Virus record (IMG/VR): IMGVR_UViG_3300025083_000156
Span: 1-29,528 of that record
DNA: 29,528 nt
Direction: 5' to 3' (one strand)
Source: a virus
Positions 4,427 to 26,064 of this stretch are shown in pieces. Each line of letters starts with the position of its first letter. Position 1 is the stretch's first letter. Below the pieces are notes generated by a model. The model was not told the origin of the DNA and searched no databases. It saw only the letters and a program-made list of their open reading frames with translations. The translations under genes and the position numbers were made by a program.

Positions 4427-6334
4427 ATGAAGCAAATAGTTATATATCCAGGACGTTTCCAGCCTATGCTGTCTCATCATGCGGAAGTATTTGATAGACT
4501 ACAGGCAAAATTTCCTAATGCGGAAGTTTATATTGGTACATCTGATAAGACTGACGAAGATAAGTCTCCTTTTAATTTTAAAGAAAAGCAGATAATAGCA
4601 CAAGGACATGGCATTGATTCTAATAATGTTCTTTTTGCAAGAAGTCCTTATGTACATACTTTCTATGATATACCTGATCAGGAAAACAAAGTAGTAATAT
4701 TTGCTGTAGGTGAAAAAGACAAAGAACGATTTACATTTGATAATATAGATGATAAAACCGGATTAAATATGAAGAAAAACGGTGAGCCATATTATTATCA
4801 GATGATAAATACATATGACGCAGATAATCCTGTCCCTATGACTGAGAGAGGGTATATCTACAATGTACCTAATATTGAATCTGATGAAGAAGAGATTGCA
4901 AGTGCAAGTGCTTTTAGAAATGCAATGAAGAATGCTCCTGATGAGCAATCTGCAAAAGCAATTTTTAATAAGCAATTTAAAAATTATAATGAATCATTAT
5001 TTAATTTGGTTTATAAAAAAATAGCAGGTAATAAAATGAAAGAAAGCCTAGATACATTAAAAAAATTAGCAGGACTAGAAGTATCTGAAGACGCTCCGGT
5101 TGAGTTTGAAACTCCAATGAACTTAAAAGACATTAAGTTTACTCCCCCAAGTAAGAGCAGTTCTTATATGAGCATAGCAAACAGATTCCCAGAAGGTTCT
5201 GATGTTAATGACCCTGAGGTCAAAAAGGAAGAGTTTATAAAAGTTCTACTTAAAGCACCTTTATCTCTACTTTCTGAAATTAACGAAAGAATATCCCCAG
5301 CAGATGACAACGGTCTTGCAGTAAGTACTAAGTTAAGTCAAGTTATTGATAACTTAGGTAGAGACGGAGATCTTAAGGATCTTAAAGACGACGACAGAGC
5401 ATTTGCAATTAAAATTGTTAAACTTGCTATTGATAAAATGGAACTAGAAGCAGGCGACGATAGTCCTACTTACGATGAATTGGAAGGCACTAAAGAAGAA
5501 AGTTTAGACTTATCAGATATCAGAGATGATTATGGTATAGAGGAAGATAAAGAGTCTGTTGAAGACTGTATTCGTAAAACATTAGAAAAAGAAGGCGGAG
5601 CGGCTGGAAAAGGTGCTCTAGTTGATGCTTGTAAAAAAGCAGGATATTCTGAAGACGAATGTGAAGATGCAATATCTAAAATGTCTAATGTTAAAAAACA
5701 TGAACATGGTGATTATATATTAGAAGACGAAGAAGCACACTTAGAAGAAGGTGGCGATTGTTATCACTGTGATGGAAAAGATGAAGACTGTGATCATTGT
5801 GATGGTGATGGATATGTTAAATTTGATGACGATCCAAATGAGCCTTCACAAGAAGAAATAGATGATCATGAAGCGGCATATAAAAAATATGTAGGTAAGA
5901 ATAAGAAAGACGAAGGTGTTGAAGAAAGCAGTGAAGATTCAGGCGAAGGTTCTATAAACAATATGGATGACGATGAACTTATGGCTTATGTGGGACAAAA
6001 AGAAGAAGACATAATTGATGATATACAAGATCATATTTCTCCAGACTTTTTACACAAAGATAACTATGAAGAAATGTTTGACAGGTACAGAGAAGAAGTA
6101 TTAATACCAGCCGCACATGAGGTTAGCCAAGATGCCGCTGACGGCATGGAACCTGCAGATGCAGACTACGAAGAATCTGTTGAAGCAACATCTAGAAATG
6201 CTTTTGATCAAGCATTAGAAGAACTTAAAAAGTTAGCAGGACTAGAATTAAATGAAGATGAATCAGAAGATTGTCCTAAATGCGGTAAAACAAAACATGT
6301 ATTAAAAGCATGTGCATCATGTGGGTGTAGTTAA
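4427..6334 (+). CDS. Nucleotidyltransferase-like protein fused to a long acidic region with zinc motifs
   Basis: 635 residues. Residues 1-200 form a cytidylyltransferase/NMNAT-type domain starting YPGRFQPMLSHHAEVF; the usual HxGH motif is altered to LSHH, keeping the last His, and IASASAFR (157-164) sits where such enzymes carry the ISxxxIR motif. Residues 205-640 are acidic and modular. LKKLAGL occurs at 211-217 and again at 600-606. A DnaJ-like cysteine pair set (C445, C448, C455, C458) and a C-terminal zinc-ribbon-like set (C616, C619, C629, C632) frame a charged segment. A winged-helix-like stretch lies around 376-432. Late expression from a 5-base-spaced promoter suggests a virion or assembly role; catalytic activity is uncertain. 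Confidence 0.75.
   Translation: MKQIVIYPGRFQPMLSHHAEVFDRLQAKFPNAEVYIGTSDKTDEDKSPFNFKEKQIIAQGHGIDSNNVLFARSPYVHTFYDIPDQENKVVIFAVGEKDKERFTFDNIDDKTGLNMKKNGEPYYYQMINTYDADNPVPMTERGYIYNVPNIESDEEEIASASAFRNAMKNAPDEQSAKAIFNKQFKNYNESLFNLVYKKIAGNKMKESLDTLKKLAGLEVSEDAPVEFETPMNLKDIKFTPPSKSSSYMSIANRFPEGSDVNDPEVKKEEFIKVLLKAPLSLLSEINERISPADDNGLAVSTKLSQVIDNLGRDGDLKDLKDDDRAFAIKIVKLAIDKMELEAGDDSPTYDELEGTKEESLDLSDIRDDYGIEEDKESVEDCIRKTLEKEGGAAGKGALVDACKKAGYSEDECEDAISKMSNVKKHEHGDYILEDEEAHLEEGGDCYHCDGKDEDCDHCDGDGYVKFDDDPNEPSQEEIDDHEAAYKKYVGKNKKDEGVEESSEDSGEGSINNMDDDELMAYVGQKEEDIIDDIQDHISPDFLHKDNYEEMFDRYREEVLIPAAHEVSQDAADGMEPADADYEESVEATSRNAFDQALEELKKLAGLELNEDESEDCPKCGKTKHVLKACASCGCS
5066..5080 (+). repeat. LKKLAGL-coding repeat, copy 1
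   Basis: A 15-base stretch (TTAGCAGGACTAGAA) identical to one at 6233-6247 in the same gene, coding the core of LKKLAGLE. A diverged third copy (LQKLAGI) starts the next protein near 6354. Confidence 0.7.
6233..6247 (+). repeat. LKKLAGL-coding repeat, copy 2
   Basis: Second copy of the 15-base identity with 5066-5080, near the 3' end of the 635-residue gene. The shared protein context (about SLDTLKKLAGLEVSED against ALEELKKLAGLELNED) extends beyond the identical bases. Confidence 0.7.
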
Positions 6335-6335
6335 T

Positions 6336-6713
6336 ATGAGCGAAATAGATAGATTACAAAAATTAGCAGGTATAGTTTCAGAAGGTGACGGTGAACCTGG
6401 AGTTGATTATAGATCAGACACAGGCGAAGGTGAGACTAAGAAAGCCGCAATTGGTCATATTGATAATGAAAGAGGAATGATATCTAAAGAGTTATACCTA
6501 ATTGGTAGAAATGCTATGGATGTTCACAAGATGTTAAAAGACTTACCAGATAGTGATTTCCCTCACTGGTGGCAAGCAAAGATCGTAAAGGCACACGAAT
6601 ATTTAGAAGGTGCTAAAAACTATTTAGATGCTGAACTTAATGCTCCTAGAGGAGATGATGTACAAGCAAGTCCAGAAGTTATGGATAACGAAGACCCTAG
6701 CGGCGTAAGTTAA
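6336..6713 (+). CDS. Small acidic protein with N-terminal LQKLAGI motif
   Basis: A 125-residue protein. ATG 6336 is chosen because it follows the previous stop by one base; an earlier in-frame ATG (6312) would overlap that gene. It begins MSEIDRLQKLAGIVSEG, a version of the LKKLAGL motif found twice in the preceding 635-residue protein. The middle contains a likely helical hairpin (KELYLIGRNAMDVHKMLKDL, then WQAKIVKAHEYLEGAKNYLD), and the tail is acidic. The shared motif suggests a common partner or destination. Its last 17 bases overlap the converging methyltransferase gene, with no terminator between them. Function unknown. Confidence 0.75.
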   Translation: MSEIDRLQKLAGIVSEGDGEPGVDYRSDTGEGETKKAAIGHIDNERGMISKELYLIGRNAMDVHKMLKDLPDSDFPHWWQAKIVKAHEYLEGAKNYLDAELNAPRGDDVQASPEVMDNEDPSGVS

Positions 6714-7524
6714 TATCCTTTAAAAATAATCTACTGACATTCGTATAACCAACAGTTTGTTGCTTATCTATTTCCCAATGGTTTTGTTTCTTTGCAAAAC
6801 TTGAATAAAAATTATCTAAACTAAACCCTGCTTCAAAATAAGTATAAGATGTATTAGAGTTTGTTTTGTAATCTAAGTCTAATAATTTAAATATATCCCC
6901 ACTAAACATTTCTTTATTACTAAGTAGATCTATATTATATTCGTTGTTAAACAATAAACTATTAGGATCTATCTCTTTATTATTAATATCAAAAAACTGC
7001 TTTAAATCGTAATCTAAATCTGATGCATCATATGTTTCTTTAGTAACTGGAACTTTATTTAAAAAATTATCCTTTAAATTACAAGATACTAAATTTAAAA
7101 ATCTAGGTTGTATATTTTCTATATTTTGTCGTTTGCAATTAAGTAAAAATAACATAATACCCTCACCTAAAGCACAATGTCCAAATAATTCATGCAAGTA
7201 TATATCGCCTTTAGGCAAGTCATCAGAAAATACATCACAATGAACTACCTCAATTTCCTCTATTGAGTTGAATCTTTCTTTAAGTTTATTAAATAAATTA
7301 ATACTTTGTTCACAACTATATACTTTTTTGGCTCCATACTTTGCTGATAACCAAGAAAAGAAACCTGTACCTGTTCCACATTCTACTACAACTTTACCTT
7401 TTACATTTTCTTTTATATACTTTATATACGAATTTGTCCTGTTATTATCTAAAAGCATTTCCCAAATAAGCATTTCTTTATCGTACTTTTCTGTAACGTA
7501 TTGTTCTAGTTGTTTAGTTGTCAT
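6697..7524 (-). CDS. Protein arginine methyltransferase-like SAM enzyme
   Basis: A 275-residue class I methyltransferase with features of the PRMT family. Upstream of the SAM motif is EMLLDNNRTNSYIKYI, like the PRMT ML-D-xRT-xxY helix. The SAM-binding motif is VVVECGTGTGFFS (45-57), and Glu72 in SCEQS is the expected ribose contact. HELFGHCALGEG (111-122) forms a double-E loop with Glu112 and Glu121 nine residues apart, as in PRMT1. A late QNHWE (His249-Trp250) matches the THW loop. PRMTs methylate arginine in proteins; the target here is unknown. The gene overlaps the preceding oxygenase by ATGA and closes the late operon that begins with peptide deformylase. An unrelated small-molecule methyltransferase remains possible. 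Confidence 0.75.
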   Translation of the reverse strand: MTTKQLEQYVTEKYDKEMLIWEMLLDNNRTNSYIKYIKENVKGKVVVECGTGTGFFSWLSAKYGAKKVYSCEQSINLFNKLKERFNSIEEIEVVHCDVFSDDLPKGDIYLHELFGHCALGEGIMLFLLNCKRQNIENIQPRFLNLVSCNLKDNFLNKVPVTKETYDASDLDYDLKQFFDINNKEIDPNSLLFNNEYNIDLLSNKEMFSGDIFKLLDLDYKTNSNTSYTYFEAGFSLDNFYSSFAKKQNHWEIDKQQTVGYTNVSRLFLKDINLRR

Positions 7525-8117
7525 GTTATATCAGTTAATTCTGCCCCAAATATAAATCTATAACTATTAATTCCGTTAGGGAATTCAGTACCATGATAAC
7601 TTTTGTTTGTTGCTTTAAATAATAATGCTGTGCCTGGTATAAACTCTACTTCCTTTACAAAGTTTTTATTTTTATCTTTACCATTATATAGTCTAGTACC
7701 CCAGCCACTATAGTCTTGTTTATTATCACCTAAATAAATTAATACCTTAAGAATGCCAGCATTTGGATTTGATTGCCTCACATATTCATATTCGTCTGTA
7801 TGAGGTCCTAAGTATAAATCTGGATTAGTAACATTTAGTCCACCAACCCATTTCCATTCTTTATTAGAAAAACCTAGATCTGTTGATATATCATAAAGTT
7901 GATTAAAAATTTTATCTTCTAATTCATTTGTTACGTCAACACCAAATAGTCCTACTGATGTTTGTATATCATCTAAATCAAATAGACTTCTATCAGTATA
8001 TTTTTGTTCGTTTATTTTATTACAGCAACTATTATAAAGGAATTTAGATTCTTCAGATGTTAGAAAATTAGATATAATTAAATGTTCAAAAGGTTCTTGT
8101 ACATTGTTATAAATCAT
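7521..8117 (-). CDS. 2OG-Fe(II) oxygenase, prolyl-4-hydroxylase-like
   Basis: A 198-residue iron/2-oxoglutarate oxygenase. The iron ligands are His106-x-Asp108 in LYLGPHTDEYEYV and His175 in KSYHGTEFP, and Arg187 (NSYRFIFGAEL) is placed to bind 2-oxoglutarate. KVLIYLGD and GTRLY, followed by PGTALLF, match the core strands of the prolyl hydroxylase-type fold. The substrate may be a protein or a small molecule. It overlaps the upstream GH6 gene by 11 bases and the downstream PRMT-like gene by 4 (ATGA), so the four-gene operon is likely translated as one unit. Confidence 0.85.
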   Translation of the reverse strand: MIYNNVQEPFEHLIISNFLTSEESKFLYNSCCNKINEQKYTDRSLFDLDDIQTSVGLFGVDVTNELEDKIFNQLYDISTDLGFSNKEWKWVGGLNVTNPDLYLGPHTDEYEYVRQSNPNAGILKVLIYLGDNKQDYSGWGTRLYNGKDKNKNFVKEVEFIPGTALLFKATNKSYHGTEFPNGINSYRFIFGAELTDIT

Positions 8118-8961
8118 GTGAATTATTTACCAACTCTGAAGCCATATCTCCCCAAAATCTTCCTGCTCTAGGTCCACCGTTTCCTGTTCCGTCAGACTCA
8201 CCTGGTATCTTAATCCATAAGAATGCATCACATTTTTCTAATCCTGTATCGCATGTAGGTGGCTCGCCTAGTGCTCTTCCAGGAGGATTACACCAATCGT
8301 TACCATGTGGACCATTACCATTACGACTAGTGTCTATCACATATTGATCCATAGGTCTGTATTCACATATTTTATTTGCCCATTTGGCTGATTCTAATGT
8401 AGATCTATAATTACTTACATTAACACTAAACCCTCTTACTTTGTCGTTAGACACGCTCTTAATCAGTCCAGCGGCTTCTTTAGGGTCTAACCAATTACTA
8501 TGTCCAATATCTACATAAACTAATGCATCACTTTCACTTGTAAGTAGACTTAATCCTTCCTTCATTAAGTTTAATCTATATTCTGCTTGAATTGGTTCCA
8601 TTTGTGTAGTATGCGGTAATGCATCAGGTTCGTATATAATTATAGGTTTATGTCCTTTTATTCCTTGACAGAATTCGTTAAGAAACAACATATAATCTGT
8701 ACTTGATCCTGCTCCACCTTTACTGTAATGTCCTAAGTCTCTTTGAGGTAAGTTGTATATTACAAAATAGGGAAGTCCTGGTAGTGTTCTTTTTAAAAGT
8801 CTTTGTAAACTTTGTGTAAGTTTAGAATAAGCATTTTTATTTTTCTTAGCACCATACCAGAATGCTACAGGATGTTCAAATATTTTTGCTACTTCAGGAT
8901 GTGTTAAACGATGGTCTTTAACCCTATCAAAGTTATTGACCCAAAAAGGATAATCAATCAT
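8107..8961 (-). CDS. Glycoside hydrolase family 6 (cellulase-family) protein
   Basis: A 284-residue single-domain protein matching GH6, whose known members cleave beta-1,4-glucan by inversion. YNLPQRDLGHYSKGG contains Asp75, equivalent to Trichoderma Cel6A Asp175. IIIYEPDALPH carries Asp113, the catalytic acid (Cel6A Asp221). KIPGESDGT carries Asp257, equivalent to Asp401. Other bacterial GH6 hallmarks are DIGHSNWL, NVSNYR, VIDTSRNGNGP and DWCNPPGRALGEPPT. There is no signal peptide, carbohydrate-binding module or linker, so cytoplasmic synthesis and release at lysis, or attachment to the virion, are the likely options. It lies second in a late operon, joined to peptide deformylase by an ATGA overlap. 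Its real substrate could be a cellulose-like exopolysaccharide. Confidence 0.9.
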   Translation of the reverse strand: MIDYPFWVNNFDRVKDHRLTHPEVAKIFEHPVAFWYGAKKNKNAYSKLTQSLQRLLKRTLPGLPYFVIYNLPQRDLGHYSKGGAGSSTDYMLFLNEFCQGIKGHKPIIIYEPDALPHTTQMEPIQAEYRLNLMKEGLSLLTSESDALVYVDIGHSNWLDPKEAAGLIKSVSNDKVRGFSVNVSNYRSTLESAKWANKICEYRPMDQYVIDTSRNGNGPHGNDWCNPPGRALGEPPTCDTGLEKCDAFLWIKIPGESDGTGNGGPRAGRFWGDMASELVNNSHDL

Positions 8962-9500
8962 TTGGCTTGTAGCCTACGGTCTAACTCTTTAAAAATTTTA
9001 TCTCGTTTTTTTATGGCTCGATCTAATTTAAACTTACTGACTTTATTTACGAATAGTTCACCTTGTAAATGTTCGAACTCATGTTGAAAGCATCTTGCGT
9101 CCATGCCATCTAACCAACCTTCTACTTCTGTTATACCATCATATAATGTATATTTTACTTTTACTTTTGCTGGTCTTGTTACATGTATATATAACATGGG
9201 AAAGGAAAGACACCCTTCTTCCATACTAACTTCCTCTTCACTGAACTCTAATATTTGAGGATTGTATACACCTACATCACCTGAACCTTCCATATTCATA
9301 ACAAACATGTTATAACTATTTCCTATTTGTGGACTGGCTAATCCTATGCCGTGTCTATCTCGCATAAGTTTAAACATGTCAACCTCTCTTTGAGACCAAT
9401 CACATTTAAAACTAAACGGGTCTATATCTGCAGGTCTATGAAGTGCTGGATGATCCGCTTGTACTAGTTGGCATAGCCATTTATCTTCTGGTTCTAACAT
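8958..9500 (-). CDS. def: Peptide deformylase
   Basis: A 180-residue metalloenzyme removing the formyl group from nascent N-terminal methionine. All three family motifs are present: GIGLASPQ (51-58, usual GxGLAAxQ), EEGCLSFP with metal ligand Cys97, and QHEFEHLQG with His140, Glu141 and His144. The C-terminal helix after the third motif (about 150-180) is kept, unlike very short phage deformylases. It is the first gene of a late operon; a perfect TATAAATA lies 5 bases before the ATG, with no ribosome binding site. Marine phages are known to carry deformylases, possibly to sustain fast protein turnover in the infected host. Confidence 0.95.
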   Translation of the reverse strand: MLEPEDKWLCQLVQADHPALHRPADIDPFSFKCDWSQREVDMFKLMRDRHGIGLASPQIGNSYNMFVMNMEGSGDVGVYNPQILEFSEEEVSMEEGCLSFPMLYIHVTRPAKVKVKYTLYDGITEVEGWLDGMDARCFQHEFEHLQGELFVNKVSKFKLDRAIKKRDKIFKELDRRLQAK

Positions 9501-9505
9501 ATTAG

Positions 9506-9513
9506 TATTTATA
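9506..9513 (-). promoter_or_regulatory. Perfect late promoter (TATAAATA), 5 bases from the start codon
   Basis: Reads TATAAATA-CTAAT-ATG on the minus strand, driving the deformylase/GH6/oxygenase/PRMT-like operon. No Shine-Dalgarno sequence fits between promoter and start, so a leaderless transcript is predicted. Confidence 0.75.
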
Positions 9514-10355: not shown

Positions 10356-10431
10356 TGGTACTCCGTAGGGGAGTCGAACCCCTGTTGCCGAGATGAAAAC
10401 CCGGTGTCCTAGGCCTCTAGACGAACGGAGC
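10356..10431 (-). tRNA. tRNA-Glu (anticodon UUC)
   Basis: A 76-base cloverleaf on the minus strand: acceptor GCTCCGT/ACGGAGT, anticodon stem CCGGG/CTCGG around loop TTTTCAT (anticodon TTC), T arm CAGGGGTTCGACTCCCCT. The 3' CCA is encoded. The first acceptor pair is a G-U. It reads GAA and GAG, abundant in this Glu-rich, AT-rich genome. Confidence 0.95.
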
Positions 10432-11127: not shown

Positions 11128-11135
11128 TATTTATA
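11128..11135 (-). promoter_or_regulatory. Perfect late promoter, 5 bases from a GTG start
   Basis: TATAAATA-ATTAA-GTG on the minus strand, squeezed between the ligase stop (11137) and the start of the 107-residue gene. The same spacing as at 9506, 20012 and 26070. Confidence 0.7.
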
Positions 11136-16555: not shown

Positions 16556-16645
16556 TGGCGGAAAGGGAGGGATTCGAACCCTCGGTACAGTTACCCGTAC
16601 TCTTCCTTAGCAGGGAAGTGCTTTAAGCCACTCAGCCACCTTTCC
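16556..16645 (-). tRNA. tRNA-Ser (anticodon GCU)
   Basis: A 90-base minus-strand cloverleaf with the long variable arm of class II tRNAs. Acceptor GGAAAGG/CCTTTCC, anticodon loop within CTTCCCTGCTAAGGAAG (GCT), T arm GAGGGTTCGAATCCCTC, discriminator G and encoded CCA. Confidence 0.95.
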
Positions 16646-16648
16646 GTA

Positions 16649-16723
16649 TGGAGCGGATGCCGAGAATCGAACTCGGATCTAAACCTTGGCAAGGTCTCAT
16701 AATAGCCGTTATACTACATCCGC
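16649..16723 (-). tRNA. tRNA-Gly (anticodon GCC)
   Basis: A 75-base minus-strand cloverleaf: acceptor GCGGATG/CATCCGC, anticodon stem around TTGCCAA, T arm CGAGTTCGATTCTCG, encoded CCA. Only 3 bases separate it from tRNA-Ser. Confidence 0.95.
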
Positions 16724-16724
16724 C

Positions 16725-16801
16725 TGGCGATCCAGAAGAGACTCGAACTCTCAACTTCCGCCGTGACAGGGCGGTGCTCTAACCAATTGAACTACTGGAC
16801 C
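16725..16801 (-). tRNA. tRNA-Asp (anticodon GUC)
   Basis: A 77-base minus-strand cloverleaf: acceptor GGTCCAG/CTGGATC, anticodon arm CGCCCTGTCACGGCG, T arm GAGAGTTCGAGTCTCTT, encoded CCA. One base separates it from tRNA-Gly. It is the first RNA after the promoter at 16812. Confidence 0.95.
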
Positions 16802-16811
16802 AATTTAAATA

Positions 16812-16840
16812 AGTATAACAAAGTTTGAATGCTTTGTCAA
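16812..16840 (-). promoter_or_regulatory. Sigma70-type promoter for the tRNA and glycosyltransferase operon
   Basis: TTGACA (16835-16840) and TATACT (16812-16817), 17-base spacing, between tRNA-Ala and tRNA-Asp. It would transcribe tRNA-Asp, Gly, Ser and then the two glycosyltransferase genes. Confidence 0.75.
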
Positions 16841-16841
16841 G

Positions 16842-16917
16842 TGGTGGAGCGAACAGGGGTCGAACCTGCGACCTCCTGGTTGCAAACCAGGCGCTCTCCC
16901 AACTGAGCTACCGCCCC
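16842..16917 (-). tRNA. tRNA-Ala (anticodon UGC)
   Basis: A 76-base minus-strand cloverleaf: acceptor GGGGCGG/TCGCTCC with two G-U pairs, anticodon arm CCTGGTTTGCAACCAGG (TGC), T arm GCAGGTTCGACCCCTGT, encoded CCA. Confidence 0.95.
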
Positions 16918-16930
16918 AACCGTATAGTGA

Positions 16931-17164
16931 TTACTTAAGGTTTCTATTTAAGTATGCAGTCATTCTATCACCGACTGCTTTAGAGTTTTTAGCAACATTG
17001 TTACCGATCATTTCAGCATTCTTCATAATGTTTGCACTAATCTCTTCTGCATTTTTTCTTACATTTTCCCCTACATTGTTCCAGTCAAAAGACGTATCTA
17101 CTTTCTTCTTACTTACTTTCTTTACTGCTTTCTTTGTGGGTGCTTTTGCTTTTGCCTTTGGCAT
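16931..17164 (-). CDS. Histone-like basic protein with 11-residue repeats
   Basis: A 77-residue protein. ATG 17164 is preferred because AGGAAAG lies just upstream; an in-frame ATG at 17212 has no ribosome binding site. The first 25 residues are Lys/Ala-rich (MPKAKAKAPTKKAVKKVSKK), like the tail of histone H1-like proteins. From about residue 31 come four 11-residue units, VGENVRKNAEE, ISANIMKNAEM, IGNNVAKNSKA and VGDRMTAYLNR, the periodicity of an amphipathic 11/3 helix. It sits between tRNA-Ala and tRNA-Thr, downstream of a late promoter. DNA or membrane binding is possible; no family is recognised. Confidence 0.7.
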   Translation of the reverse strand: MPKAKAKAPTKKAVKKVSKKKVDTSFDWNNVGENVRKNAEEISANIMKNAEMIGNNVAKNSKAVGDRMTAYLNRNLK

Positions 17165-17224
17165 TTTCTTCTTTCCTGTGCTTTGCACGTTACGTTTCTG
17201 AAATCTATTCATGAACGTTATTAT

Positions 17225-17301
17225 TGGAGCTCGGAGTCGGATTCGAACCGACGACCTGAGGTTTACAAAACCCCTGCTCTGGCCAACTGAGCTATCCGAG
17301 C
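17225..17301 (-). tRNA. tRNA-Thr (anticodon UGU)
   Basis: A 77-base minus-strand cloverleaf: acceptor GCTCGGA/TCCGAGC, anticodon loop TTTGTAA (TGT), T arm GTCGGTTCGAATCCGAC, encoded CCA. A perfect TATAAATA ends 10 bases before its first base. Confidence 0.95.
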
Positions 17302-17999: not shown

Positions 18000-18821
18000 T
18001 TATTTAGGTAATTGCTCGCCGTTATCGTCCATGTTGTATAAGAATTCATGATATAATCCCATACTGTGATCAGCAAAACCATCTATTAGATTAAATGATT
18101 TTAGTGCCATCCAATGCCCTCTACATTTATCTTTAAAACGTTGAAGCCATGTTGCTGGCCTTATATTACCATATGTATTAATATACCTTAATACACCACC
18201 GTGTTTAAAACATAAGAATGAAGGTGGCACAGCCGTTACAGCATCGTTATTATTTCTATATCTATAATACTTCATGCCTTCTAAGGATTTCAAAAACTCT
18301 TTATTACCTACTCTAGGTTGTCCAAATGTATGTAAGCCACCTGATACTCCTAAAGGACAAGTATTAAGTTCAGCGGCAACCAATACTGCCATTGCTCCAC
18401 CTAAACTATGACCTGTAATCCATAGAGTTTTTGTTTGTTTCTTATCATGATTTTTAAGAGCGTCGTATATACCAGGCATTACTTTTTTGTATTCTGCATA
18501 GAACCCTCTATGTACTCTTCCTGATACATGATGCTTTACTGGAAACATTTTTAAGTCTGCAAGTATGTCATTAATTTGTGTGGGTTCAGTACCTCTACAT
18601 GCAATAAGTACATCGTCTTTATCACTCATTACATACGCCTGAGCACCATCAACATCTATAAATGTAGGTGGTAAAGGTTTATTTAAAAATTTTTTAAGTG
18701 GGGAAAGATCTTTTATCCCTGGTCTTGCTTCTAATAATTCTTCAGGGGACTGATAACATTGATGAGCATACATGCTTAACAATAATCCTCTTTCTCTATA
18801 TGACATATCTTTAACTGACAT
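18000..18821 (-). CDS. Class 3 lipase (alpha/beta hydrolase)
   Basis: A 273-residue lipase. ATG 18821 is chosen because AGGAGT sits 6 bases upstream; a TTG 14 codons earlier lacks such a site. The nucleophile elbow is WITGHSLGGAMA with Ser139. ACRGTEP (75-81) is placed for the oxyanion hole, HTFGQPRVGN is the family's next conserved block, NNDAVTAVPP gives Asp193, and DHSMGLYHEF supplies the His (His252 or His258). There is no signal peptide, so it acts in the cytoplasm or after lysis. Substrates could be host membrane lipids or storage lipids. It has a GATAAATA promoter upstream. Confidence 0.88.
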   Translation of the reverse strand: MSVKDMSYRERGLLLSMYAHQCYQSPEELLEARPGIKDLSPLKKFLNKPLPPTFIDVDGAQAYVMSDKDDVLIACRGTEPTQINDILADLKMFPVKHHVSGRVHRGFYAEYKKVMPGIYDALKNHDKKQTKTLWITGHSLGGAMAVLVAAELNTCPLGVSGGLHTFGQPRVGNKEFLKSLEGMKYYRYRNNNDAVTAVPPSFLCFKHGGVLRYINTYGNIRPATWLQRFKDKCRGHWMALKSFNLIDGFADHSMGLYHEFLYNMDDNGEQLPK

Positions 18822-18872
18822 TTTGTTACTCCTGTGTATTAAATTGCTTATCCTACCTAGCAATTACAGTAG

Positions 18873-20011: not shown

Positions 20012-20019
20012 TATTTATA
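20012..20019 (-). promoter_or_regulatory. Perfect late promoter, 5 bases from the ferredoxin ATG
   Basis: TATAAATA-CACAT-ATG on the minus strand with no ribosome binding site, so a leaderless message is predicted for the late transcript. Confidence 0.7.
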
Positions 20020-22046: not shown

Positions 22047-23678
22047 ATGGCAAGTTATATAGTAGAAATGGACGGAACAGTTCATGCAGATTCGACGGCG
22101 GCACAAACCGCAATTACAAATGCAGGTGGTTCTATTACCACTGCTTTTGATCTTAATATGACATTTGAAATAAGTTGTACCGCTGAACAATTAGCGGCGA
22201 CGACAGGAGTTAAACATTCCTCACTATCAGATGCAAATTCAGGATTAGAAGTTTCAGCATTAGATGTTACACATTTTAAATATATAGACAATAGATTCCA
22301 TAGACAAGATCCTGAAAACGGAAATGCGGCAATTGAACACGGTGAATTTGTTCACTTTTACAAAGGTAATGGAAAAACAGTTTATCTTTTAGACTCTGGT
22401 ATGAATTCAAATCATGTGGAATTTGCAAATGCTTCTATTACTAACTTATGGACAGCATTCGACACTAATCCAAACGGTGATGCTTATGCTAGTGATTATG
22501 AGGATAACGTAGGACATGGTACAGCAGTAGGCTCTCTTATTGTTGGCGAAAATATAGGTACGGCTCCAGACGCAAAATTAATGAATGTTAAATTATATGA
22601 TCAAGCAGTAGGAACAACTACAATAGGTAATGTTGTTACAGCATTTAGTAAAGTACTTGCCCACCATAATGCTAACGACACAACAGATGTTAAAGTATTA
22701 TGTGCTCCATGGATTACAACACAAAACGATCTAATAGATTCCAAGGTTATGGAATTAAATAGTGCTAATGTTGTAGTTGTTGCGGCGGCTGGTAACAAAG
22801 ACGATGATGTAAATAAGTATTCTCCAGCAGGTATAGAAGAAATTATTACTGTTGGTTCTCATGATAGAAACTGGGCAATTTCCGAATTTAATAATACTGC
22901 ATGGGACGGCGGAACACCTAATTCATCATTACCAAACTATGGTGCACCAGTTGATATTTTAACAATCGGTGAAGATGTATGTATGGCAACATCCTTATCT
23001 AATACAAGTTATGTATTAGGAACTGGAACCAGTCTTTCAGCAGGACTAGTTGCAGGTGGTGCCGCGGCATTTATTGAAAAACATAACAATAAAAATTCAA
23101 ACGAAATTAAAGATATCCTAGTTGCAGAAGGTAAATTAAGAGCAAGAACAACATTTACTATATCAGAGACACTTGCTGACAATCACACATTCCATTCATC
23201 AACAGGTGTACAATATGCGGCTTTACAGTTAGATTCTGCAGGCCCTAATGCATCAGTACAACTATTCACGACACCTTCAAGTCTTGTTGGTAATGTACAA
23301 AGAGGACAAAGTCTAACAGTTGACTTAGGTTTAAATTCCTCAGCATCAAATGTTGAAGTATTATCATTCAGTCCTTTATCACCTTGGATGACGTTTAACA
23401 CAAGTACAGGTATACTAGTTGCTGATACAGACGGATTAGCGGCTGAACGAGCACCTGGATTTTATACATTTGGTGTTAAAGGTAAAATAGGTGAGTTGTT
23501 CTCAGTAGAAGAGTTTACAATAGGTGTATATGAAACTAATGAGTCAGAATTAGAAGGTAGTGTAGGCAGTTATTACTATGATACTGAAAATACAGAGTAT
23601 GATTTAAATACAGCAATTAACTATGAACTTTCACCACAATATATGATGAATGTGGAAGTTATTGGTACTAAAAAATAA
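22047..23678 (+). CDS. Subtilisin-like serine protease (S8) with C-terminal beta domain
   Basis: A 543-residue protein. Residues 1-55 resemble an I9-type propeptide (YIVEMDGTVHADSTAAQ and the EQLAATTGV turn). The catalytic triad is complete: Asp116 in LLDSGMNSNHVEF, His157 in VGHGTAVGSL and Ser329 in GTSLSAGLVAGG, with Asn250 (AAAGNKD) for the oxyanion hole. Residues 390-543 form a beta-rich, cadherin-like or Ig-like tail with SPLSPWMTFNTSTGILVAD. There is no signal peptide, so phage release or virion attachment is likely. Late promoter and tail-like domain suggest a structural protease that trims virion or host surface proteins; this is inference. Confidence 0.9.
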   Translation: MASYIVEMDGTVHADSTAAQTAITNAGGSITTAFDLNMTFEISCTAEQLAATTGVKHSSLSDANSGLEVSALDVTHFKYIDNRFHRQDPENGNAAIEHGEFVHFYKGNGKTVYLLDSGMNSNHVEFANASITNLWTAFDTNPNGDAYASDYEDNVGHGTAVGSLIVGENIGTAPDAKLMNVKLYDQAVGTTTIGNVVTAFSKVLAHHNANDTTDVKVLCAPWITTQNDLIDSKVMELNSANVVVVAAAGNKDDDVNKYSPAGIEEIITVGSHDRNWAISEFNNTAWDGGTPNSSLPNYGAPVDILTIGEDVCMATSLSNTSYVLGTGTSLSAGLVAGGAAAFIEKHNNKNSNEIKDILVAEGKLRARTTFTISETLADNHTFHSSTGVQYAALQLDSAGPNASVQLFTTPSSLVGNVQRGQSLTVDLGLNSSASNVEVLSFSPLSPWMTFNTSTGILVADTDGLAAERAPGFYTFGVKGKIGELFSVEEFTIGVYETNESELEGSVGSYYYDTENTEYDLNTAINYELSPQYMMNVEVIGTKK

Positions 23679-23682
23679 GTAA

Positions 23683-24783
23683 TTGATTGATACTTTACAC
23701 ATAGATTTAACATCTTATTCAAAAACTTTTAATAGTTTATCTCCCCAAGGGCAATGGTTTTGTAGTCGTATAGGTAAACGAAAATATCCTGTACAAGAAA
23801 TAAATGTGGATCTATTAATAGAATTCATATCCAAAAATAATCCTAAAAAAGTATTCTGTAATAGTTTCTACGGAGACTCATTAGAATATTCTAAGATAGT
23901 TGAATTGTCTAAATATTGTAAAGAACTAGAAATAGAATTTATAGTATTTACATCAGGAAGTAACTTAGACAAGAACATTGTAGATCAATTATTAGAATAC
24001 AATACAACATTTTATTTATTTTCTTATGGTGTAGAAGACAATGCAAATAAAATTGTTTTAAATGTTGATTGGATAGACATATATAATTTTTTAAAACAAA
24101 CAAAAAATAAATGTATTATAGAATTTTCCTCTTATAAACATAATGTAAACGACATTTATAAAATGTTGGAAATTTGTAAAGAATATGGTAATAGTATAAA
24201 AATAATAAAAGGCAATAATTTTAAAGAAAATGTTACCAATATTTTTAATGCTCAAGGTAAATGGTTATATGATGTCTTACCTATACAAGAGGCTTTGCCT
24301 TTTGAAGATGAATTTTTACATGATGTAACAGAAGCACTAAAAGAATATAAAGATATAAAAATAGAATCTAAAAAGTTATTTAGAAGTACAGAAGGTTATT
24401 TGAATACGAGATACTTCAGAAAAACAGACAGAGGAGAAAATATTTTTGATGCTGGGATTCCAGATTTATGTGATGTATACCCCTTACAATTTTATTCTAG
24501 TGATGAAGTATTTATAAATTCTACTGGACATATTTTTTGTAATCGAGAATCTTATGATATTTTTAATAACTGTTTAGCAAACGACTGGCACTCAAAATTT
24601 ATGTCTCATATTTCTAGCAATGAAAGTAAATATAGGCAAAGTGGCTTACATAAATTGCATATAGAAGAGTCAGAATTTGTTAAAAATGTATTATTTAAAT
24701 ATATATTTTACTTTAAAAAGAAATTACAAGATTGTTCTTTAGAGAAAAATATACAAGATTTCTACTGGTCTAAATCGTCTTAG
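23683..24783 (+). CDS. Radical-SAM-like protein lacking the SAM-cluster motif
   Basis: A 366-residue protein starting at TTG 23683, five bases after the subtilase stop. The predicted barrel follows radical SAM order: KKVFCNSFYGDSLEYSKIVE, then FIVFTSGSNLDKNIVDQLLE and a later helix-strand pair ending KEYGNSIKIIKG. The N-terminal CxxxCxxC that holds the SAM iron-sulfur cluster is absent. Near residue 266 a SPASM-like block keeps LCDVYPLQFYSSDEVFINST and IFCNRESYDIFNNC. It may bind a peptide or assist the true radical SAM enzyme encoded head-to-head with it. The start codon is uncertain because no strong ribosome binding site is seen. Confidence 0.6.
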   Translation: MIDTLHIDLTSYSKTFNSLSPQGQWFCSRIGKRKYPVQEINVDLLIEFISKNNPKKVFCNSFYGDSLEYSKIVELSKYCKELEIEFIVFTSGSNLDKNIVDQLLEYNTTFYLFSYGVEDNANKIVLNVDWIDIYNFLKQTKNKCIIEFSSYKHNVNDIYKMLEICKEYGNSIKIIKGNNFKENVTNIFNAQGKWLYDVLPIQEALPFEDEFLHDVTEALKEYKDIKIESKKLFRSTEGYLNTRYFRKTDRGENIFDAGIPDLCDVYPLQFYSSDEVFINSTGHIFCNRESYDIFNNCLANDWHSKFMSHISSNESKYRQSGLHKLHIEESEFVKNVLFKYIFYFKKKLQDCSLEKNIQDFYWSKSS

Positions 24784-25789
24784 TAATAGATATATCAGAA
24801 ATATTGTTACAGTATTGATAAGGACAAATGACTTTACTAGCAGGTAAACTCCAATTACTATCTGCAACATTACCAAAATTTACAGCACCACACCAACTAC
24901 TATACATATCTCCACTAGCATCTATATTTAAACTTTCAAATCCAAGATGACATTTCATATCCTTAAAGGAATTAAGTCCTTCATTTATAATTTGGTGACT
25001 CTGTACATACTTTGTAGTTCCGTCTTCATATAGAAATTCCGTCATCCAGGATGTATCTGGAACATGCTCTTTAGGTTCCTCATCTTCAATATGATCAATA
25101 TGCTCTACAGGCATTGGTTTTATTCCAGGCCGTTGTAATACTTCTAATTCCTTATCTGTGTACTGCCAATATGTTTCCTGCTTACTCTGATGCCCTAAGA
25201 GCTTCTTATACATTGTTTTTACACATATACTTACATTATCATAGGTATTACGATTACAATTTAAAAATAAATTTCTTAGTTCTTCTACAAAATCACCTAA
25301 ATCTTGAACTTGTCCACCTATTCCTGCTATATTAATATCTATAGTGACGTCTTCTTTAATCTCATTTATAACGTCTATAATATGTTGTTTATCTTGTGTT
25401 TGAGGATGAAATGTTAATACTACTCCGTCCATGTAATACTTTGCTTTACTCCACCAATTGACTGTTCTACTACCGTTCGTGAATACAACATTATGTGTAT
25501 TAAATTGATCTATCTTTCTAATAATATCCTCAAACCCTGGTATTACTGTAACTTCTCCGCCTATTAATTCAAAGTCCACACGTTTATCCAAACTGTTATA
25601 ATGCTTACATAGACGCTCTATGGCCGTTAAATAGGACTCTAAGGGTAACCACGGCTTAGAACCGTCGTGCAGTATAGGGGGACAATATTCGCAATTATAA
25701 TTACATGAGTTGCCCATGTTCCACTGGATTCTTATATTATCCATTGGACCTCGAGCATGTGGGCCTCGTACTGAAACGAGTTTAGACAT
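24770..25789 (-). CDS. Radical SAM enzyme with C-terminal Cys cluster
   Basis: A 339-residue enzyme; ATG 25789 is chosen because it overlaps the PAAR gene's stop (TAATG) and has AGGA just upstream. The SAM-cluster motif is SCNYNCEYCPP (Cys29, Cys33, Cys36), ELIGGEVTVIPGFED is the GGE motif that binds SAM, and FTNGSRTV follows. The C-terminus carries MKCHLGFES, SSWCGAVNF and VICPYQYC, a twitch/SPASM-like set that could hold an auxiliary cluster. Enzymes of this type modify peptides or proteins. Strict coupling to PAAR suggests a role in making or modifying the tail tip, which is inference. Its last 14 bases overlap the converging radical-SAM-like gene. Confidence 0.85.
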   Translation of the reverse strand: MSKLVSVRGPHARGPMDNIRIQWNMGNSCNYNCEYCPPILHDGSKPWLPLESYLTAIERLCKHYNSLDKRVDFELIGGEVTVIPGFEDIIRKIDQFNTHNVVFTNGSRTVNWWSKAKYYMDGVVLTFHPQTQDKQHIIDVINEIKEDVTIDINIAGIGGQVQDLGDFVEELRNLFLNCNRNTYDNVSICVKTMYKKLLGHQSKQETYWQYTDKELEVLQRPGIKPMPVEHIDHIEDEEPKEHVPDTSWMTEFLYEDGTTKYVQSHQIINEGLNSFKDMKCHLGFESLNIDASGDMYSSWCGAVNFGNVADSNWSLPASKVICPYQYCNNISDISITKTI

Positions 25790-26064
25790 TACAGTCCTGT
25801 AATGACGGTGGTTGATCCTGGTGCTAATGTATGCCCACAACTAACAACACCAGGTGCTATGGCAACAAATTTACCTTCTGCCATTACTGTGCCGCTACCA
25901 GTAGCAATAAGACTACTACCTGTTGTATGTGGTGCTTCACCATGTGTTGCTATTCCATCACCTACTACTGATATCGGAACACCTTCAACAAAGACTGTTG
26001 GTGCTCCGGGGCCGATAATCAATCCGCCTCCCGCCATATCAATACCTACTCTACAAGTTGTCAT
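25789..26064 (-). CDS. PAAR-domain tail spike tip protein
   Basis: A 91-residue protein of Gly/Val-rich short strands with the PAAR pattern: GAPTVFVEGVPISVVGDG, then ATHGEAPHTTGSSL and GVVSCGHTLAPGSTTV. The His and Cys residues at strand ends (His41, His46, Cys76, His78) are placed to hold the apical zinc/iron. In T4, gp5.4 is the PAAR tip on the gp5 spike that pierces the outer membrane. The start lies 5 bases after CATAAATA, so late leaderless expression is expected. The stop is fused to the radical SAM gene's start. Confidence 0.9.
   Translation of the reverse strand: MTTCRVGIDMAGGGLIIGPGAPTVFVEGVPISVVGDGIATHGEAPHTTGSSLIATGSGTVMAEGKFVAIAPGVVSCGHTLAPGSTTVITGL

Follow-up and report, generated by a model that had tools for sequence, protein, structure and literature searches.

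A phage cellulase has been verified biochemically in Erwinia phage S6, a podovirus whose gp095 belongs to glycoside hydrolase family GH5 (PMC9544554). Together with gp094 (GH48) this enzyme acts on cellulose of the host, and both are multi-domain proteins of families unrelated to GH6. A phage-encoded GH6 domain is found in gp72 of Streptomyces phage Gilgamesh, a protein of 444 residues annotated as a glycoside hydrolase, with an N-terminal extension and a gene in the tail module, and two metagenome papers include GH6 in their lists of viral AMGs (PMC8725595, PMC9948696). A literature search on phage-encoded cellulases returned nothing, though S6 gp095 and the viral GH6 hits are published. The statement in the first-pass annotation that GH6 has no well-studied phage member thus requires qualification by Gilgamesh gp72, by the AMG lists and, outside the family, by the S6 GH5 cellulase. 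The characterized GH6 enzymes closest to the protein described here are bacterial endoglucanases, Cel6/CelA1 of Mycobacterium tuberculosis (1UP0, 1UOZ) and Cel6A of Thermobifida fusca (TfCel6A, 1TML), with which it shares fold, catalytic aspartates, substrate-site residues and a length of about 285 residues at approximately 33–38% identity. Unlike them, it has no signal peptide for secretion, lacks both disulfides and is encoded in a putatively late phage operon.

The window, a stretch of 29,528 nucleotides (positions 1 to 29,528 of IMG/VR virus record IMGVR_UViG_3300025083_000156), contains the gene within the following group of features.

4427..6334, plus strand: convergent conserved neighbor c4, about 635 residues, with a nucleotidyltransferase-like N terminus (phrog_395, 2.2e-6); in 31 loci
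6336..6713, plus strand: convergent conserved neighbor c1, about 127 residues; present in 38 loci
6697..7524, minus strand: SAM methyltransferase-like, last gene of the run (PF00398, 7.1e-7, 29 bits, above the cut-off of 24)
7521..8117, minus strand: 2OG-Fe(II) oxygenase-like, overlapping the GH6 stop (PF13640, 5.2e-5, a weak match of 24.6 bits, below the cut-off of 27)
8107..8961, minus strand: predicted GH6 endo-beta-1,4-glucanase, a bare catalytic domain (Pfam profile, alignment and model)
8958..9500, minus strand: peptide deformylase, at the head of the run (Pfam PF01327, 8.7e-37; phrog_2890, 3.8e-33)
9506..9513, minus strand: putative T4-type late promoter core TATAAATA, followed by CTAAT and the ATG, 5 nt before the deformylase start codon

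The GH6 open reading frame begins with ATG and encodes 284 residues, the stop codon being counted within 8107..8961. The protein matches Pfam PF01341 (Glyco_hydro_6) over positions 15–298 of the 305 in the profile with 165 bits (E = 4e-48), well above the curated family cut-off of 27, and the Pfam search revealed no domain besides the catalytic one. PHROG and NCBIfam profile searches gave no match, so the gene would be missed by the usual phage annotation libraries. The best solved relative by sequence is M. tuberculosis Cel6 (2.4e-52), and the closest solved relatives, which also include a compost GH6 and TfCel6A, are all bacterial GH6 endoglucanases.

Alignment with TfCel6A gives 93 identities in 247 aligned positions and places D75, D113, D151 and D257 of the phage protein on D79, D117, D156 and D265. 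The three key aspartates named in the first-pass annotation (75, 113 and 257) therefore map exactly to D79, D117 and D265. Also intact are W35, Y69, H154, W157, S183, N184, W223, R229, K251 and E255, which align to TfCel6A active-site residues; the roles of the aligned active-site and substrate-site residues are presumably those generally known for TfCel6A. The four catalytic-site aspartates do not vary in 64 distinct phage proteins, and among the other mapped positions only H154 (63/64) and S183 (62/64) do, so that the catalytic aspartates and sugar-contacting residues expected of the family are present.

Structure prediction and comparison with GH6 enzymes, which had been proposed as a check, were carried out with AlphaFold2. 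A first model, built from an alignment of the phage sequences alone, had active-site loops of low confidence, and GH6 enzymes were already its top matches (TM 0.77). A second model, from a deeper alignment that includes four GH6 sequences from outside the phage clade, reached a pLDDT of 90.3 and a pTM of 0.91; it has the distorted barrel of the family and superposes on M. tuberculosis Cel6 (1UP0) with a TM of 0.90 and on TfCel6A with 0.86. A search of a viral structure library found no GH6-like fold. From sequence and model the phage gene apparently encodes a complete, functional GH6 cellulase.

With respect to the mode of cleavage, endoglucanases outrank cellobiohydrolases in both the sequence and the fold searches, and the phage protein does not have the extra 60–80 residues of the cellobiohydrolases, differing from TfCel6A only by short insertions and deletions. 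The absence of long tunnel-forming loops places it in the open-cleft endoglucanase subgroup, and endo action is likely from these two observations, length and structural neighbors. An inverting endo-beta-1,4-glucanase activity is predicted from sequence and model, as part of an overall explanation to which we give an even chance. A shift of specificity within a conserved GH6 fold, for example toward a different beta-1,4-linked glycan of the host's wall or capsule, would be compatible with an identity of only about 35% to characterized enzymes and with consistent differences such as K81, which replaces TfCel6A S85 and is invariant in the 23 phage proteins checked. Since every mapped sugar-contacting residue is kept, such a shift is considered improbable.

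Secreted bacterial cellulases have a signal peptide, two disulfides and often a binding module. None of these is present in the phage protein, in agreement with its earlier description as a bare catalytic domain without signal peptide or binding module. Across the phage family no hydrophobic, signal-like N-terminal stretch was seen. The TfCel6A disulfides pair C80 with C125 and C232 with C267; C80 and C267, one from each pair, are absent in 64/64 phage proteins, the equivalent of C125 is absent in all 23 checked, and C232 is the sole cysteine of the two pairs that has been kept. The loss of both disulfides and the lack of a signal-like N terminus suit folding in a reducing cytoplasm, and the phage enzyme therefore probably folds there. 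Cellulose is exported while it is being synthesized; an enzyme in the cytosol would thus have access to it only once the cell has lysed, or on the exterior of the next cell.

The search of viral metagenomes that had been suggested yielded 38 loci in IMG/VR with a single-sequence scan; an alignment-based scan gave 90 relatives, and 80 of these were retained. Nearly all are 43–100% identical to the window protein and about 282 residues long. In the tree, 51 phage sequences lie on one side of a branch (SH-aLRT 99) and 14 other GH6 sequences on the other; among these 14 are two phage sequences and one doubtful viral contig, with a small sampling of bacterial GH6 and long branches, and this outgroup leaves the donor of the phage gene unassigned. 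One IMG/VR contig (L126, 1–1011), which may be a prophage or of cellular origin, carries a secreted GH6 of actinobacterial type; this sequence falls outside the phage clade and was left out of the clade count. Among 50,697 phage records GH6 matches were found only in Gilgamesh (two records) and in an unannotated faecal scaffold, at 32–33% identity. Gilgamesh gp72 (32.5%) groups with bacterial GH6 in the tree, as does the gene on the faecal scaffold, listed as ‘Bacteriophage sp.’ (L042, 742–1635 of MT836874.1; 32.6%).

The ratio dN/dS was approximately 0.05–0.14 in the non-identical pairs tested, larger distances being saturated at silent sites, and selection on the phage gene, as read from these ratios, is purifying. 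A decayed or inactive copy was rejected in view of the low ratios and the invariant active-site aspartates in 64 proteins. Recent transfer from a known bacterium was also considered, and no close relative was found: a genome scan with two narrow peptide patterns gave only Glycomyces, at 39–42%, and the best match in a search of plasmids was at most 40%.

The deformylase, GH6, oxygenase-like and methyltransferase-like genes each overlap by a few bases in the window. In 61/64 distinct loci that have an upstream gene, this gene is on the same strand as GH6; a deformylase lies directly upstream in 40/64, while another 13 have it at a distance of two genes on that side, and where the two are adjacent the gap between them is −14 to +8 bases. 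The oxygenase-like gene recurs beside GH6 in other loci (cluster c24). The methyltransferase-like protein has generic methyltransferase matches in NCBIfam, all below cut-off, and a longer relative of c1 has a weak, sub-cut-off match to the DnaJ CXXCXGXG repeat. The possibility that the contig is chimeric at 8961/8117, which had been raised, was checked and is excluded by an independent 37-kb contig with the same gene order and by the deformylase upstream in most relatives. A T4-lysozyme-like gene is found at 863–1324, approximately 7 kb from GH6. Taken together, these loci appear to represent a coherent and so far undescribed lineage of bare, disulfide-free GH6 proteins, encoded in a deformylase operon of jumbo-type phages.

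The earlier placement of the gene in a late operon agrees with the promoter core 5 nt ahead of the deformylase, the leading gene of the overlapping run, and late timing of the GH6 operon may be inferred from that element. A late promoter element at 5–6 nt precedes 22/50 homologous deformylase genes. In related loci 127/844 open reading frames have TAAATA ending exactly 5 nt ahead of their ATG, compared to about 3 at most other spacings, and in its extended form, GATAAATACTAGT-ATG, the consensus is similar to the T4 late promoter. The element stands exactly 5 nt before a start codon at 9506–9513, 11128–11135 and 20012–20019 of the window, all on the minus strand, and in loci L047–L125. At this spacing of 5 the TAA of the motif is not in frame with the start codon, and the peak is thus no artefact of the calling of open reading frames. 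Controls with T4 and PA5oct gave no peak at 5 nt, the element lying mostly 14–39 nt upstream. Late transcripts of T4 begin about six bases past the promoter element, from which the late mRNAs of these phages are predicted to be leaderless. A literature search on leaderless late promoters returned nothing.

The NrdA, NrdB, DNA ligase and exonuclease encoded in the window match phage PHROGs, and NrdB is closest (61%) to that of Rak2/GAP32-type jumbo phages. At 29.5 kb the window is a fragment and has no gp23 of its own. T4 gp23 is present in the two GH6 contigs of greatest length, G001 (339,794 bp) and G029 (328,096 bp), which exceed 200 kb and so belong to T4-superfamily jumbo phages. The attribution to a T4-like phage is therefore upheld in a broad sense, the nearest isolates being of the PA5oct/GAP32 type. 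In the 340-kb contig, gp23 is 70% and terminase 56% identical to the proteins of PA5oct-type phages, and a structural block at approximately 185–324 kb is syntenic with PA5oct; no GH6 was found in PA5oct/GAP32-type phages in the search of phage records. A 250-kb contig, the sole other terminase relative above 200 kb that was checked, has no GH6, though it may be incomplete; GH6 would then not be essential to the group of jumbo phages and is probably not universal in it. A cyanophage origin is unsupported, no psbA having been found in 18 related contigs, most of which are fragments. GH6 appears to be a gene that this clade of aquatic jumbo phages, members of the T4 superfamily, has kept as its own.

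Other genes were observed in the window. A radical SAM protein (24770–25840, minus; PHROG 13987) has a sub-cut-off NCBIfam match to viperin (3e-9, 36 bits against 180), and there are a subtilase-family S8 protease (22047–23678, plus; 3.7e-23) and a class 3 lipase (18000–18863, minus; 3.7e-26). Six tRNA genes are present, for Ser, Gly, Asp, Ala and Thr in a cluster at 16556–17301 (minus) and for Glu at 10356–10431 (minus), near the GH6 operon. In the 340-kb relative (L133), a run of genes at approximately 128–135 kb resembles, by eye, an iron–sulfur (SUF) assembly operon.

The position of GH6 in the 340-kb contig bears on where the enzyme might act. The gene lies at 167.7–168.6 kb, outside the PA5oct-like structural block, approximately 17 kb away from the gene at which PA5oct matches begin in the structural/replication block, and approximately 12 kb from open reading frames whose placement resembles that of the PA5oct RNR genes. 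An enzyme held on the tail or capsid by other proteins could clear beta-1,4-glucan during entry, and cellulose might then be the first receptor, as in S6, a phage that depends on cellulose of its host and has genes for two putative beta-1,4-glucosidases, of which one has been verified (PMC9544554). The GH6 domain in the tail module of Gilgamesh and the late promoter before the GH6 operon would fit attachment to the virion. Against it, GH6 nearly always consists of the bare domain alone, about 282 residues long, with neither the anchor domain nor the tail-module location of S6 gp095-type depolymerases, its neighbors are deformylase, oxygenase-like and methyltransferase-like genes, and no tail genes were recognized beside it in the neighboring loci or in the 340-kb relative. 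Virion attachment and the receptor role that goes with it are together regarded as rather unlikely, although they form the chief alternative to release at lysis. Of the two functions first suggested, the degradation of a beta-glucan around the host is retained as the best reading, and a virion depolymerase is possible but not favored.

Viral GH6 genes have been read as metabolic in the two surveys cited above (PMC8725595, PMC9948696), such that cellulose or its oligosaccharides would serve as a source of carbon during infection, either for the infected cell or for an aggregate under co-infection. Other metabolic-looking genes in the window and in the 340-kb relative are in keeping with this, but no cellulose is expected in the cytosol, the predicted location of the enzyme, no beta-glucosidase or transporter was recognized beside GH6, and a late promoter suits genes of the lysis stage better than the feeding of an infection. 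There is little probability, in our estimation, that the gene serves in this way.

The best reading, which we consider an even proposition, is that the gene encodes an endo-beta-1,4-glucanase which is produced late, stays in the cytosol until lysis releases it, and then cuts cellulose around the host. GH6 would be transcribed late together with peptide deformylase, and the enzyme would fold and build up in the host cytoplasm and leave at lysis along with the endolysin, the simplest route and the one preferred, though belief in it is equally balanced. Its target once outside would be cellulose or some similar beta-1,4-glucan, either in the coat of the host and neighboring cells or in the matrix of their aggregates; the cutting of this glucan would set progeny free and clear a path to fresh cells. 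There is a verified precedent for a phage cellulase that degrades cellulose of the host matrix (PMC9544554). The lack of a binding module to hold the enzyme on its substrate speaks against this reading, and the rapid dilution of a soluble enzyme in open water would favor virion attachment unless the hosts live in aggregates. More tentatively, GH6 may be a second lysin in a large clade of aquatic jumbo phages, a cytosolic cellulase expressed from a leaderless late operon that exits with the endolysin; this presupposes that a beta-1,4-glucan coat, overlooked by current marine microbiology, is a habitual feature of their planktonic hosts.

Phage cellulases have until now been represented by single isolates and isolated metagenome matches, and here there is an old, conserved and apparently active phage lineage. 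The protein should be cheap to express, and it adds a candidate to the matrix-degrading enzymes for work on biofilms. The occurrence of close GH6 relatives in dozens of uncultured jumbo-type phages suggests that their bacterial hosts are surrounded by cellulose-like sugar chains which the phages must cleave. The conserved lineage predicts a trait of the hosts, an extracellular beta-1,4-glucan, and the gene may serve as a marker for finding them.
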